In this document: piece by piece, positions 9,464-40,262 of the stretch
Position numbering within the stretch: position 1 is the stretch's first letter
How the letters are laid out: each line of letters begins with the position of its first letter
NCBI GenBank assembly: GCA_945890645.1
Contig: CAMDCV010000024.1
Span: 1-64,000, forward strand
Source of the DNA: Akkermansia muciniphila
GTDB lineage: Bacteria > Verrucomicrobiota > Verrucomicrobiia > Verrucomicrobiales > Akkermansiaceae
Direction: 5' to 3'
DNA: 64,000 nt
The notes under the pieces: model-generated
Database searches by the model: none
Told to the model about the DNA's origin: nothing
Seen by the model: only the letters and a program-made list of their open reading frames with translations
Position numbers and translations under genes: made by a program

Positions 9464-9529
9464 TGTGGAAAGTAAGAGGGCGATTATGCTCAGGAGATGA
9501 AGAATCCCAGCGGCGCAGCCGCAATAGGG
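9464..9529 (-). pseudogene. Remnant of the membrane-protein 3' end (copy C)
   Basis: The minus strand encodes about 22 residues containing YCGCAAGILHLL, related to the C-terminus of the protein at 8803-9363 (YFGCVAVILHLLGMM). It then ends at a stop. It begins exactly where the perfect hairpin at 9528-9611 ends, as in copy A at 4.0-4.2 kb. Confidence 0.5.
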
Positions 9530-11162: not shown

Positions 11163-11507
11163 AAGTGAGGTGGTTGGGTGACAGCGGCGAGGTCGCTGCG
11201 GCGGGAGCGGAGTAGCCCACCGCAACCGAATCGGCAAGCCTCGATTTCGGTTCGGGGCATTTCCCTTTTGCAAGGTAATGCTAAAGAGGCAATTTTTAAC
11301 CACGAAAGGCACGAAATACACGAAAGGAAGGCATAAAGGCAGGATTGACGAATGATGAATGTTGATTTTTGATTTTTGATTTTTTGAAGCGGACTCTTGC
11401 CGATCTGGGGATCAGCGTTCCAAGGCTTGGAGGCGAGGACGCCTCCGCCACGAAAAAAATTCCGTTTCTGCTATTGCAAATCAATCTCAATAAGCTAGGG
11501 TCTGTCC
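11163..11507. other. Intergenic region between purH and feoA with short repeats
   Basis: No gene is supported. The stretch contains CACGAAAGGCACGAAATACA near 11300, a run of AT-rich short repeats (TTGATTTTTGATTTTTGATT near 11362), and a small palindrome GGAGGCGAGGACGCCTCC (11429-11446, 7-bp stem and 4-nt loop) followed by GCCACG. A close relative of that palindrome is at about 33175-33195. It must hold the divergent promoters for purH and feoA, but I could not identify convincing -35/-10 pairs. Confidence 0.5.
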
Positions 11508-37289: not shown

Positions 37290-38384
37290 TTATAATTTAA
37301 ACGAATGAAATAACTGCGGCTTTGTACTGCGTGTCTTTTCATAAACACTGCGATACGCTTTACCAACGACTTCCCAAGAAAATTTTTCTAATGCTTCCAT
37401 TCTAGCTGATTTTAGATTCTCATCTTGCTCATCGGTCCTTGGCGGTAGCCACTTGTGCAGACTTTGATTCCAAGCATCGAAATCACCAGCATCCATCAGC
37501 TCTCCATTCCATCCCGCTGTTACTAATTCTGGCATCGAGCTTTTCGGCTGTGCCAAGATCGGGATTCCCATGGCGATCGCCTCAATCATCCCCAAGGAAA
37601 GACCTTCTCGTTCTGAGGGAAAGACCAGAACTCCTGCTTTCGCCATCACCGCCCGTGCCATGGAACGCTCCATATTACCCAACCAGAGAATATTGGGTGT
37701 CGCAGTAAATTGATCGGCATAGATTTCCCCATCGCCGGGCAAGACTCCTCCGAGTGCGACAAAAGTTATGGACGGATTCGCCTTCGCCAGATTGACAAAA
37801 ATTTGAGGGTTTTTCCGCGACTCTACCACCGCTAACCACAGAGGATAACCGGATTTAAGTGCTGCGACCTCGTCCGGTAGCTTGACCTCGTCAATTTTGC
37901 CCGGATCGTAGAGATGGGGATCAAAACCGTTAGGTATCACACCCAAAAAACGGTCTGGATAGCGATTCCTGATATCGGCGGAGACCGCTTCGCTCACTGC
38001 GACAAACCGATCGGCAATTCTCAGAAATCTTCCATACCGAAGTTGATCGATGGCATACTTCAAATCATATTCTAAATTTAACGTGGTGAGGAATTTCGTA
38101 TGGCCTATGCCACGAATTTTCGAGATTAGCGAAGCCAGGTAATTCCCTCTACTGTAGGATGCGGTGTGAACGATATCGAATCGATCCAACAGAATGGCCG
38201 ATGGTTTGCGCAAACGCAGATTCGGTAGCTTCCAAAATTCGCCCCCCATTCGCCGATCTTCCTCAGTTTGTGGATTGGAGAATGAATGAAACTCAATATC
38301 GGGATTATACTGAACACAAGCACGTTGCAATGTGCTGATCGGATTACGCCAGCGATCAAGACTGATGGGCAGGAGGATTTTCAT
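37290..38384 (-). CDS. Glycosyltransferase, GT4 family (paralogue of 39026-40087)
   Basis: A 364-residue GT-B enzyme beginning MKILLPISLDRWRNPISTLQ. Donor-half motifs: PLWLAVVESRKNPQIFVNLA, LWLGNMERSMARAVMAKAGV and FPSEREGLSLGMIEAIAMGI (E-x7-E). It is a clear paralogue of the protein at 39026-40087 (MRILLPITLDRWRNPIATL). Its ATG follows directly on a degenerate repeat tract (38385-38480), so its promoter or leader lies within that tract if it has its own. Donor and acceptor unknown. Confidence 0.9.
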   Translation of the reverse strand: MKILLPISLDRWRNPISTLQRACVQYNPDIEFHSFSNPQTEEDRRMGGEFWKLPNLRLRKPSAILLDRFDIVHTASYSRGNYLASLISKIRGIGHTKFLTTLNLEYDLKYAIDQLRYGRFLRIADRFVAVSEAVSADIRNRYPDRFLGVIPNGFDPHLYDPGKIDEVKLPDEVAALKSGYPLWLAVVESRKNPQIFVNLAKANPSITFVALGGVLPGDGEIYADQFTATPNILWLGNMERSMARAVMAKAGVLVFPSEREGLSLGMIEAIAMGIPILAQPKSSMPELVTAGWNGELMDAGDFDAWNQSLHKWLPPRTDEQDENLKSARMEALEKFSWEVVGKAYRSVYEKTRSTKPQLFHSFKL

Positions 38385-38480
38385 CGGGAGCAGGGAGCTA
38401 TGAGGTGCGAGACGCGAGAAACGAGCTAGCAGACGCGAGGTGCGAGGCGCGAGCTAGATGACAGGAGCTAGGAGCCCTGA
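38385..38480 (+). repeat. Degenerate GAGACGCGAG repeat tract (downstream flank of cassette B)
   Basis: A purine-rich plus-strand tract of about 95 bp made of irregular short words: GGGAGCAGGGAGCTATGAGG, TGCGAGACGCGAGAAACGAG, CTAGCAGACGCGAGGTGCGA and GGCGCGAGCTAG. There is no fixed period or spacer, so it is not a CRISPR array. It lies between the four-helix-bundle pseudogene and the start codon of a glycosyltransferase gene. The tract at 38923-39025 on the other side of the pseudogene is built from the complementary words. Confidence 0.75.
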
Positions 38481-38516
38481 GTAAGAAGAAGTGAAAGCGG
38501 AATACGACTCACTAGC

Positions 38517-38882
38517 TTAGTCTGCTTTGAGAGTGTTACGAAAGGCGAAAGTCATTTTGCTTAATTCGATTAATTCCACCAAAATTTCAGAAGGCCGATC
38601 TGAGACAATTTTATGATTATGAAACACCAACAACATGCTGGCGACTTCAAAAATGGATCGTCTGGAGATGTTAAGAAAATGAGCAAAGTCTTTATCCGAG
38701 CAGCTACCTGAACCTTCTGCCATATTGTTCTAAACGCTGAGCATAGCCGCTCGAAGCTGTTCGCTGAAACGAAATTTTTTCTGTAGCTCGATGGTATCAG
38801 CCAACTCAAATACCGGACCCGAAATCTCAACAGCCCGCTGCCAAATCGCCATATCCTCAAATCGAAATCTGTCGTTTTTCAT
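38517..38882 (-). pseudogene. Four-helix-bundle protein (23S rRNA-intervening-sequence/Avd-like), interrupted by an amber codon
   Basis: One reading frame of 122 codons encodes a typical four-helix-bundle protein: FRFEDMAIWQRAVEISGPVF, then KKFRFSEQLRAAMLSV, a stop, then NNMAEGSGSCSDKDFAHFLN and ISRRSIFEVASML. The family has Ser (SVSNNIAEG-like) where codon 51 is TAG (38732-38730), so a single C-to-A change of a TCG codon would explain it. The frame is unbroken otherwise, so the loss is recent or the stop is suppressed or is an assembly error. The downstream part could start at the ATG at 38723. Relatives include 23S rRNA intervening-sequence proteins and Avd of diversity-generating retroelements; no reverse transcriptase is in this window. 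It is flanked on both sides by degenerate repeat tracts. Confidence 0.85.
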
Positions 38883-38922
38883 AATCGAAAATTATCTTAA
38901 TCAGTAGCTATAATGTTAAATT

Positions 38923-39025
38923 TCCTCATCCTCACGCTTCCCGCTCCTGCCTTCCTGCTCCTGCCTTCCCGCTCGCGTCTCTATGCTCGCGTCTCCAAGC
39001 TTTCCCCTGCTCGCTTCTCGCGACT
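38923..39025 (+). repeat. Degenerate CTCGCGTCTC repeat tract (upstream flank of cassette B)
   Basis: A pyrimidine-rich plus-strand tract of about 100 bp: CCCGCTCCTGCCTTCCTGCT, CCTGCCTTCCCGCTCGCGTC, TCTATGCTCGCGTCTCCAAG. Its words are the complement of those at 38385-38480, so the two tracts are inverted about the four-helix-bundle gene. It shares TCGCGTCTCcATGCTCGCGT with the tract at 40188-40262, with one difference. It begins right at the stop codon of the glycosyltransferase gene at 39026. Confidence 0.75.
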
Positions 39026-40087
39026 TCACCCAAAGAGCTGCTGGTAGATTTTTCCGTATTGCCGTCCGATGCTCGACCATGAGTAGTGGTTTACGATTCC
39101 GGGGCGTATTTGCGTTATGAATTCTTGGCGTTGCTGTGCATCGCGCGAAAGATATTTTCTCATGCTAGCGATCCAAGCCTCGATGTCATTGATGTCGTGC
39201 ATGTTGCCATTTACATCAGCGGCAATCAGTTCCGGCATCGAACTTTTCGGCTGACCAATGACTGGCAATCCCATGCCAAGAGCTTCAATCACCGACAAGG
39301 CGAGCCCCTCACGCTCTGAGGGAAATAGAAATACCCCGGCATGACGCAATAAGGCGCGGATGCAACGTCGATCCACATGACCTAGCCATTTGAGATTGGG
39401 CAAGGAATGCATCATTGGCTCAAAATGTTTTCCGTCAGGATGCACATAACCCGCCGCAGCAAAAATCACATCCGGCTGGCGGCGTGCAAGCTCCACAATA
39501 AATTCGGGGTGCTTTCGCGGTTCTAGCGCACCTACGTAAAGGGCAAAGGAGCCGGGCTCGAGCACGCGAACTGTTTCTGGCAAGACTTCTTCATCGCCGA
39601 TCTCGGGATCGAAATAATCAGGATCAAACCCATTCGGAATCACTTGTAAAAACCTGTCAGCGCAACGTTTGGAGACACCGGCGCCCGCTGCCTTGCTAAC
39701 GGAAACAAAACCATCGGCCAAGCGCTCGGCGATTTGCAGCAATCGCCAATCTTTGCCATCCGCAGGCCCGACTTCCAGGTTAATCGTACTTAAGTATCGG
39801 CATTTGCCACCACTTCGCGCTTTAGCTGCGACAACTGCTGCTTGATTGTGAAGAGTGATAGAGGCGGTGTGAACGCCATCAAATCGAGTGAATACTAGGC
39901 GCGATTGTGAGCTTTTGACTATGTTGGGCAATGCCCAGAACGCTTTCGCCAACTCTCCATCCTCTGAACTAAGAGGCCCAGAGTACGAGTGAAATTCCAC
40001 TTCCGGGTTTGCTTCGACGCAGGCACGCAGCAAAGTAGCGATCGGATTACGCCAGCGGTCAAGCGTGATAGGAAGGAGAATGCGCAT
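39026..40087 (-). CDS. Glycosyltransferase, GT4 family (paralogue of 37290-38384)
   Basis: A 353-residue GT-B enzyme beginning MRILLPITLDRWRNPIATLL. Motifs: FALYVGALEPRKHPEFIVEL, LKWLGHVDRRCIRALLRHAG and FPSEREGLALSVIEALGMGL, with IGQPKSSMPELIAADVNG. It is closely related to the protein at 37290-38384. Both genes start immediately after a degenerate repeat tract, and a four-helix-bundle cassette lies between them, so duplication by recombination between tracts is plausible. Confidence 0.9.
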   Translation of the reverse strand: MRILLPITLDRWRNPIATLLRACVEANPEVEFHSYSGPLSSEDGELAKAFWALPNIVKSSQSRLVFTRFDGVHTASITLHNQAAVVAAKARSGGKCRYLSTINLEVGPADGKDWRLLQIAERLADGFVSVSKAAGAGVSKRCADRFLQVIPNGFDPDYFDPEIGDEEVLPETVRVLEPGSFALYVGALEPRKHPEFIVELARRQPDVIFAAAGYVHPDGKHFEPMMHSLPNLKWLGHVDRRCIRALLRHAGVFLFPSEREGLALSVIEALGMGLPVIGQPKSSMPELIAADVNGNMHDINDIEAWIASMRKYLSRDAQQRQEFITQIRPGIVNHYSWSSIGRQYGKIYQQLFG

Positions 40088-40135
40088 GGGGAGTTAAGCA
40101 GGGAGCGCTGAGACGCGAGACGCTAGCTAGAGGCT
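40088..40135 (+). repeat. Degenerate GAGACGCGAG tract (cassette A, left)
   Basis: Purine-rich words AAGCAGGGAGCGCTGAGACG and CGAGACGCTAGCTAGAGG, matching the style of the tract at 38385-38480. It lies directly upstream of the start codon of the glycosyltransferase at 39026-40087 and faces the complementary tract at 40188-40262 across about 50 bp of unique sequence in which I found no four-helix-bundle sequence. Confidence 0.65.
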
Positions 40136-40187
40136 AAACGAAGGAAATCGGGGAATCTGAAAGGGGAGACTTGCTATAAGGACTAGA

Positions 40188-40262
40188 AGCTCGTTTCCGC
40201 TTGCTCACACCTCCGAGTTCAAAGTTCGCGTCTCCATGCTCGCGTCTCCCTGCTCTCACTGC
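40188..40262 (+). repeat. Degenerate CTCGCGTCTC tract (cassette A, right)
   Basis: Pyrimidine-rich words CTCGTTTCCGCTTGCTCACA, GTTCGCGTCTCCATGCTCGC and GTCTCCCTGCTCTCACTGCC. The middle is nearly identical to part of the tract at 38923-39025. It runs up to and into the last codons of the polymerase gene that ends at 40256, whose final residues (ALAHASSVGMSGQ) may be encoded by invading repeat sequence. Confidence 0.65.

Follow-up and report, generated by a model that had tools for sequence, protein, structure and literature searches.

What a small four-helix-bundle gene has to do with the tracts of short words that enclose it is the question raised by this locus of Akkermansia muciniphila, which lies in a window of 64,000 nucleotides, the whole stretch of DNA analysed here. 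The gene belongs to the S23 family. S23 proteins and the GxxExxY proteins, which were found in a similar setting, are common in bacteria and have, to our knowledge, no known function; nor do we know of a catalytic role for S23.

The S23 unit of the window

The S23 gene (PF05635) extends from 38517 to 38882 on the minus strand and comprises 121 codons from ATG to TAA, with the ends read from the sequence. It matches the PF05635 profile at 38550–38858 on the same strand with 78.4 bits, which exceeds the curated cut-off of 33.8 and places the gene in the S23/IVP family. One TAG lies inside the match. This in-frame codon (38730–38732) directly precedes NNMAEG, the counterpart of the SNIAEG motif in relatives, and replaces a variable residue that is Pro, Ser or Met there. 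Because of this codon, the S23 copy of the window is probably broken, barring a misread base. The unit was found between two protein ORFs (37290–38384 and 39026–40087) and not in 23S rRNA. Both ORFs lie on the minus strand, codirectional with the S23 gene, and look like glycosyltransferases as judged by eye. Two further S23 genes are present in the genome of the window, each inside inverted tracts with other words.

The arm downstream of the gene (38394–38476) consists of NNNNGAG-type heptamers on the plus strand, their complement being on the sense strand, and the arm upstream (38926–39025) carries NNNNGAG-type heptamers on the minus, or sense, strand and is less regular. On the plus strand, the left tract is thus of the GAGACGCGAG type and the right tract is its complement. 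The flanks share 28 inverted 7-mers against a mean of 8.5, which is more than in all 200 dinucleotide shuffles (L002). Positions 38425–38473 pair with 38941–39000 with a score of 24, the second rank among inverted 60-nt pairs in a scan of the 64 kb; the other pairs scoring at least 19 are located at 9525 (25), 12460 (20), 25589 (19) and 40088 (19), the last being a hairpin. The preliminary description, in which a four-helix-bundle gene is flanked by complementary word tracts, was thereby confirmed as a PF05635 gene with inverted tracts. An ORF between complementary arms is also a feature of the intervening sequences (IVSs) of rRNA. The sense RNA of the unit is predicted to fold with the arms paired around the gene, at −220.6 kcal/mol compared with −193.9 ± 4.7 for 20 shuffles (z −5.6), none of which was as good.

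The tracts had been described as lacking a fixed unit length. This has to be revised, as the unit is a degenerate heptamer with peaks at lags 7 and 14. The self-identity of the left tract is 0.53 at lag 7 and 0.52 at lag 14, with other lags at 0.17–0.34, and its letters read GTGCGAG ACGCGAG AAACGAG CTAGCAG ACGCGAG GTGCGAG GCGCGAG. The right tract reaches 0.43 at lag 7, 0.60 at lag 14 and 0.43 at lag 10, the rest being 0.27–0.34. When the window was scanned at lag 7 in 42-nt stretches with a threshold of 0.6, only the left tract (38382–38476) and a stretch at 11331–11395 were flagged, and the right tract stayed below the threshold. A CRISPR array or a plain fixed tandem repeat was rejected, since the degenerate 7-mers are contiguous and have no spacers. 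An ordinary terminator was rejected as well, because a gene of about 360 bp lies between the arms, which also show the 7-nt period.

The next gap of the gene run holds a hairpin without a gene (40088–40256, no strand assigned) with words as in the S23 unit; GAGACGCGAG occurs in it at 40110 (+) and 40239 (−). It folds with z −3.4, with none of 200 shuffles as good, and scores 17–25 against the arms of the S23 unit; its own identity is 0.41 at lag 7 and 0.40 at lag 14. Wide dispersal of GAGACGCGAG in the genome of the window (G000) was rejected, with 14 matches compared with 10 for reversed controls, and five of the 14 belong to the two window units. Eight further places in seven regions were inspected. 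By eye, five of them resemble single word tracts (L436, the second place of L437, L438, L439 and L440), and the other three have no such look (the first place of L437, L441 and L442). The best inverted partner at these places scores 15 (L438), the others 8–11. G000 contains one clear inverted doublet, inside the window, and single tracts. As a separate observation, the stretch flagged at 11331–11395 is a TGATTTT heptad tract that resembles a stretch in L436 (G000:C61) near 190–250, which reads GATTGACGAATGA...TGTTGAT... and adjoins a GAGACGCGAG tract on another contig. The genome may thus harbour a further dispersed family of words.

Arm matching, period and anchor at other loci

The arms of S23 units match each other in more than half of the loci tested, and their words differ between units. 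In a genus and family sample, 35 of 55 S23 loci have more inverted shared 7-mers in their flanks than all 200 dinucleotide shuffles, and five of 55 do so in the direct orientation (one of 56 loci was dropped for a flank under 150). The S23 protein of G020, a genome of the window's family, is identical to a protein of Persicirhabdus sediminis, in line with a placement in Verrucomicrobiota, probably Akkermansiaceae. In named genomes from many phyla, the numbers are 40 of 75 inverted and eight of 75 direct, five of 80 having been dropped for short flanks. When the arms were aligned with gaps, 92 of 157 loci reached the lowest p value that 100 shuffles allow, and 83 of the 92 have a purine-rich upstream arm; nine of 166 loci, the window gene among them, had been dropped for a short flank, an N or a protein under 80 aa. 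The loci are the best-scoring search matches rather than a random draw and include many orthologues, and between 36 and 47% of them fail the arm test across the three samples. Offset controls taken 2.8 or 4 kb away on the same contigs passed in four of 242 cases. PIN-toxin genes from the same family of genomes passed in none of 27 cases, with two in the direct orientation (L369, L372 and L380 of 30 were skipped). Chance or a generic effect of small genes was rejected on the basis of these controls and of the offset controls for the GxxExxY genes given below. That the flanks of other S23 genes should carry such tracts, and that protein and tracts form one unit, had both been proposed from the window alone; the three samples uphold the first, and arm matching at S23 loci but not at offsets or PIN genes speaks for the second.

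A 7-nt period with an R-G anchor recurs around S23 genes across phyla. The consensus word of the arms is a degenerate heptamer, NNNN-R-G-N, in which NNNN is common to both arms and differs between units. In 233 units found with the profile, lag 7 gives an identity of 0.416 in the upstream and 0.427 in the downstream arms, and lag 14 one of 0.385 and 0.395; lag 8 gives 0.297 and 0.300, and most other lags about 0.27. Control stretches 630–700 nt upstream show the 3-nt coding period only, and the 7-nt period was obtained again with 90 representatives that share less than 55% protein identity. A strong 7-nt window, present in 122 upstream and 109 downstream arms of the 233 units, was used for phase alignment. 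Read on the upstream strand, or on the downstream arm after reverse complementation, the alignment yields one and the same consensus: the first four positions are almost free, the fifth is A or G, the sixth is G, and the seventh is mostly T, A or G in upstream arms and mostly T, A or C in downstream arms. Its information amounts to 2.17 bits upstream (column-permuted 1.76 ± 0.03) and 2.03 bits downstream (1.72 ± 0.07). In 67 named units outside Verrucomicrobia, sorted by record titles, the anchor was found in 33 of 36 and 27 of 38 heptad windows, and none of 300 permutations reached the observed score; since the matrix had been learned on the full set of 233 units, to which the named ones belong, this is not a clean hold-out.

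S23 was rejected as common phage or plasmid cargo. With one S23 protein as the query and E 1e-5, none of 50,697 phage records and 20 of 72,556 plasmid records matched, and 16 of these 20 are cyanobacterial. Ten cyanobacterial plasmid units were inspected, six of which (L325, L327, L328, L329, L331 and L333) have a 35-nt window of lag-7 identity of at least 0.75 on both sides; by eye, the two tracts of L328 are codirectional, not inverted. The remaining four (L330, L332, L326 and L334) are weak, one-sided or lack the 7-nt period. Among L325, L328 and L334, a Nostoc plasmid carries S23 antisense between nrdB and nrdA, a gap also used in Verrucomicrobia, and the two further units sit among CRISPR-associated genes.

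Some S23 genes depart from the simple layout. In L007, the frame appears to extend into the tract downstream of it, so that the protein would end in a Ser/Pro-rich tail. L026, L027 and L030, and also L012 and L020, encode a relative of about 250–280 aa (TIGR04258, with the suffix four helix bundle, in L030), with GATCNGAC-type words upstream and, by eye, inside the coding sequence too. In G115, two S23 matches lie adjacent in frames of 250–261 codons (C12, C37, C74 and C77), as if the S23 domain had been duplicated inside one gene.

GxxExxY genes (PDDEXK_3) have the same layout as S23 units, with words of about 9 nt. The arm test was passed by 24 of 29 family loci (two direct; L243 of 30 was dropped), against none of 58 offset controls, and by 20 of 26 phylum loci (three direct). 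From the phylum sample of 29, L345 and L351 were omitted by hand, L345 without good reason, and L352 was skipped. In both the GxxExxY and the PIN tests, the upstream flank begins at the profile match and not at the start codon. The copy in G006 (L255) misses the shuffle floor with p 0.02. The word period is broader and weaker than that of S23: over the 29 loci, the identity is 0.320 and 0.337 at lag 9 and 0.299 and 0.313 at lag 8, compared with 0.268 and 0.278 when shuffled. The copies of G000 and G001 match TIGR04256, and PF13366 matches were also found.

GxxExxY genes with their words may constitute a parallel system able to use the same gaps. In the nrdB-nrdA gap, where 30 of the 52 places found were tabulated, an S23 match is present in 10 of 30 loci (L211 and L212 being fragments and L198 short), and four genomes (G000, G001, G004 and G006) have a GxxExxY gene with inverted words alongside. 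In G001 and G006, an S23-type arm is still present beside it. In the nuo operon, S23 and GxxExxY genes each occupy a gap of their own, and there can be as many as five of them (L285, L286 and L287). Three S23 genes and two GxxExxY genes were found in this operon in G057, where word tracts are visible by eye; G001 has one of the former and two of the latter, and G016 has three S23 genes.

Inheritance of the gene and dispersal of the arms

About even chances are given to the reading that an S23 gene and matched heptad arms, (NNNN-R-G-N)n, form a widespread unit in which the arms are copied in trans and the gene is stationary, with the window holding one copy. The likeness of the arms within a unit suggests a process that keeps both arms alike, and matched arms would act as a hairpin, either in a transcript or in single-stranded DNA.

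The S23 gene is under purifying selection, with a dN/dS of 0.07–0.22 in nine of 10 orthologue pairs, the tenth being saturated. S23 identity follows host-protein identity at two sites, with a rho of 0.70 at metK-ahcY and 0.80 at nrdB-nrdA (seven loci and 21 non-independent pairs per site), and the genes therefore look mainly vertical, inherited in place. Among the copies compared in 15 genomes, the highest identity of an S23 pair within a genome is about 57%. Arm similarity between units at sites classed as different rises with protein identity: it was found in 0.65 of 40 pairs at 70% or more, 0.092 of 468 at 55–70%, 0.014 of 3171 at 45–55% and 0.008 of 22,890 below. As a test of the co-movement of gene and words this is weak, since several top pairs are one site that the neighbour test missed.

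The strongest competitor, although rather unlikely, is a unit that works in RNA only, in the manner of an IVS: the arms would pair in the operon transcript, RNase III would free the S23 piece and any spread would be incidental. The IVS of Coxiella, as described in PMC4990558, has an S23 ORF and arms that are complementary to each other; its 5' arm carries GACAGAT heptamers in tandem, in two or three sets depending on the strain, and the RNase III site is located at the first repeat. It thus resembles the units described here in the family of its protein, in an ORF inside complementary arms and in tandem heptamers that vary between strains; GACAGAT, put in phase as TGACAGA, even fits NNNNAGA. 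IVSs lie in rRNA helices. The units described here are located between protein-coding genes, their words change from place to place, and their arm tracts also occur without the gene. S23 genes are most often sense-oriented in an operon gap. Relative to the neighbours, 97 loci are ++, 22 +−, 16 −+ and 13 −−, in 148 of 164 loci, the 16 without both neighbours assigned having been left out. The ratio of 97 to 13 and the folding of the window unit favour RNA pairing, and a sense bias is also expected of any native operon gene. However, no excess of G.U was found between the arms (168 observed against 182 expected, with A.C at 221 against 194; plain counts, uncorrected for base composition, are 142 and 237). 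There is thus no sign of selection for pairing in the sense RNA, and the arms are as likely to be corrected or copied as DNA. The RNA-only explanation also leaves unexplained the 46–60 matches of one arm word in two genomes.

That word is TTTTCAG, which makes up the arms of the S23 unit that G037 carries between nrdB and nrdA. At metK-ahcY, where 30 of 60 places were tabulated and one was cut by a contig edge, seven of 30 loci have S23, with AAGAC-type words. Arms without the gene were found in this gap in G004 (both arms), G019 (both arms, with TTTTCAG) and G037 (one TTTTCAG arm), and several other loci are empty or hold a different hairpin or short tracts of GATC words. At the metK-ahcY, nrdB-nrdA and nuo sites, the sharing of words and the identity of the genes were partly judged by eye. 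A comparison of strains at identical sites had been proposed for the whole unit, and its presence indeed turned out to be polymorphic at metK-ahcY and nrdB-nrdA. Short GATCAGACTGATC-type tracts without a gene were also observed in the metK-ahcY gap of four genomes (L172, L175, L177 and L192).

With up to two mismatches, and with the arms of the S23 unit itself included, TTTTCAG has 60 matches at 50 places in G019 and 46 at 42 places in G037. Other sisters have six (G029), two (G059), one (G052) and none (G045), and the reversed pattern has no match in all six genomes. The suggestion that the tracts are tied to S23 genes stands in one respect, as they are rare at offsets and absent from PIN genes, and is partly contradicted in another, as word tracts also occur without the gene. 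Thirty of the dispersed loci were searched for a significant inverted partner within 150 nt. It was found in five (L401, L407, L411, L412 and L413); L415 is the S23 unit, and the remainder are single arms by this test. Since so few have a partner, the dispersed single arms may be remnants of hairpins or something else. Four gene-less hairpins fold with z −4.1 to −5.8.

A comparable arrangement is known from REPINs, which are short extragenic inverted repeats capable of forming hairpins, accompanied by a single-copy, vertically kept RAYT gene; REPIN singlets are regarded as decaying remnants (both in the parts available of PMC3116915 and PMC8049555). By analogy, the arm tracts would be copied in trans as REPINs are by RAYT, with the S23 gene as the stationary partner. 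The two systems are alike in extragenic, hairpin-capable inverted repeats beside a vertically kept gene. They differ in that S23 or GxxExxY, and not a Y1 transposase, is enclosed here, the words are degenerate and unit-specific, and most dispersed copies observed consist of one arm. A transposase unrelated to S23, such as RAYT itself, might also spread the arm tracts, in which case S23 genes would be passengers. The spread of arm words in two genomes without copies of the gene agrees with this, as does the fact that we know of no catalytic role for S23, but the regular association between heptads and S23 in different phyla would need a reason, and the proposal is considered improbable.

Replication slippage, by which an intergenic insert would accumulate tandem words, with the arms made alike by quasipalindrome correction and no reader protein at all, could account for the perfect heptamer runs of some arms (L092, L110 and L328) and for a word order that is often alike within a unit. 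It is nevertheless a decidedly poor candidate, given the PIN genes (0/27), the offset controls (4/242 and 0/58) and the recurrence of the 7-nt period and R-G anchor around S23 across phyla. That the cassette is copied by way of RNA or a primed template, on the model of diversity-generating retroelements, is scarcely credible despite the fold family common to S23 and Avd, because the S23 gene tracks the host and has no recent duplicates among the copies compared, and the preliminary description noted no reverse transcriptase in the window.

Related repeats and a possible reader

S23 and the Avd protein of diversity-generating retroelements share a four-helix fold family, which is the only link of the window gene to these elements. 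Heptamer repeats are known from several bacteria. STRR (STRR1) are heptamer repeats of cyanobacteria, and repeats of this kind also occur in an intron of Nostoc. TAACTGA heptamers were reported in Beggiatoaceae and others (PMC4679880, seen in part), a text in which neither 'S23' nor 'four helix' occurs. On the other strand, TAACTGA reads TATCAGT and fits NNNNAGT, and a Vibrio unit in the present collection (L117) has AGTTATC runs adjoining S23. GGGAATC of Xanthomonas and GGGGA(C/T)T of Nostoc are heptamer repeats as well, the former including 70 and 75 inverted pairs (PMC4692102, available part); GGGAATC fits the arm consensus only with G at the R position. These repeats share with the arms their 7-nt length and intergenic location and differ in being presented, in the available text, as repeats without a named S23 gene. 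In the literature covered, outside which lie preprints and most subscription papers, no publication was found that links S23 or GxxExxY to such arms, the rRNA of Coxiella aside.

The arms are alike within a unit, the words drift, and the spacing and R-G persist, which suggests a reader of spacing and anchor; S23 would be a candidate for this reader. An S23-family protein of Xanthomonas is a toroidal homopentamer (PMC4990558, available part), and solved relatives of S23 include 2gsc (XCC0516) and 2rld. The fixed R-G at every seventh nucleotide would then be the contact that a ring-shaped S23 reads, with one subunit per word. TRAP reads spaced NAG triplets, and S23 might read R-G in a similar way.

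On a wider view, S23 with heptad arms may be one ancient class that covers the 23S rRNA IVSs, STRR, TAACTGA and GGGAATC. In this class, a pentameric ring would read R-G and the other bases would drift jointly in both arms, GxxExxY would be a second, independent system, and in both, the tracts would spread in trans and the gene would stay. This is put forward tentatively, at somewhat less than even chances.

Heptamer repeats of bacteria were previously noted without a partner, and the period, the anchor and the matching of arms would link them to S23. A link of S23 and GxxExxY to repeats would give both the proteins and the repeats a testable role. A repeat system in which the sequence drifts while the spacing and one dinucleotide remain constant suggests a ring protein as the reader, and the role of the 23S rRNA intervening-sequence protein, an old question, would become directly testable.
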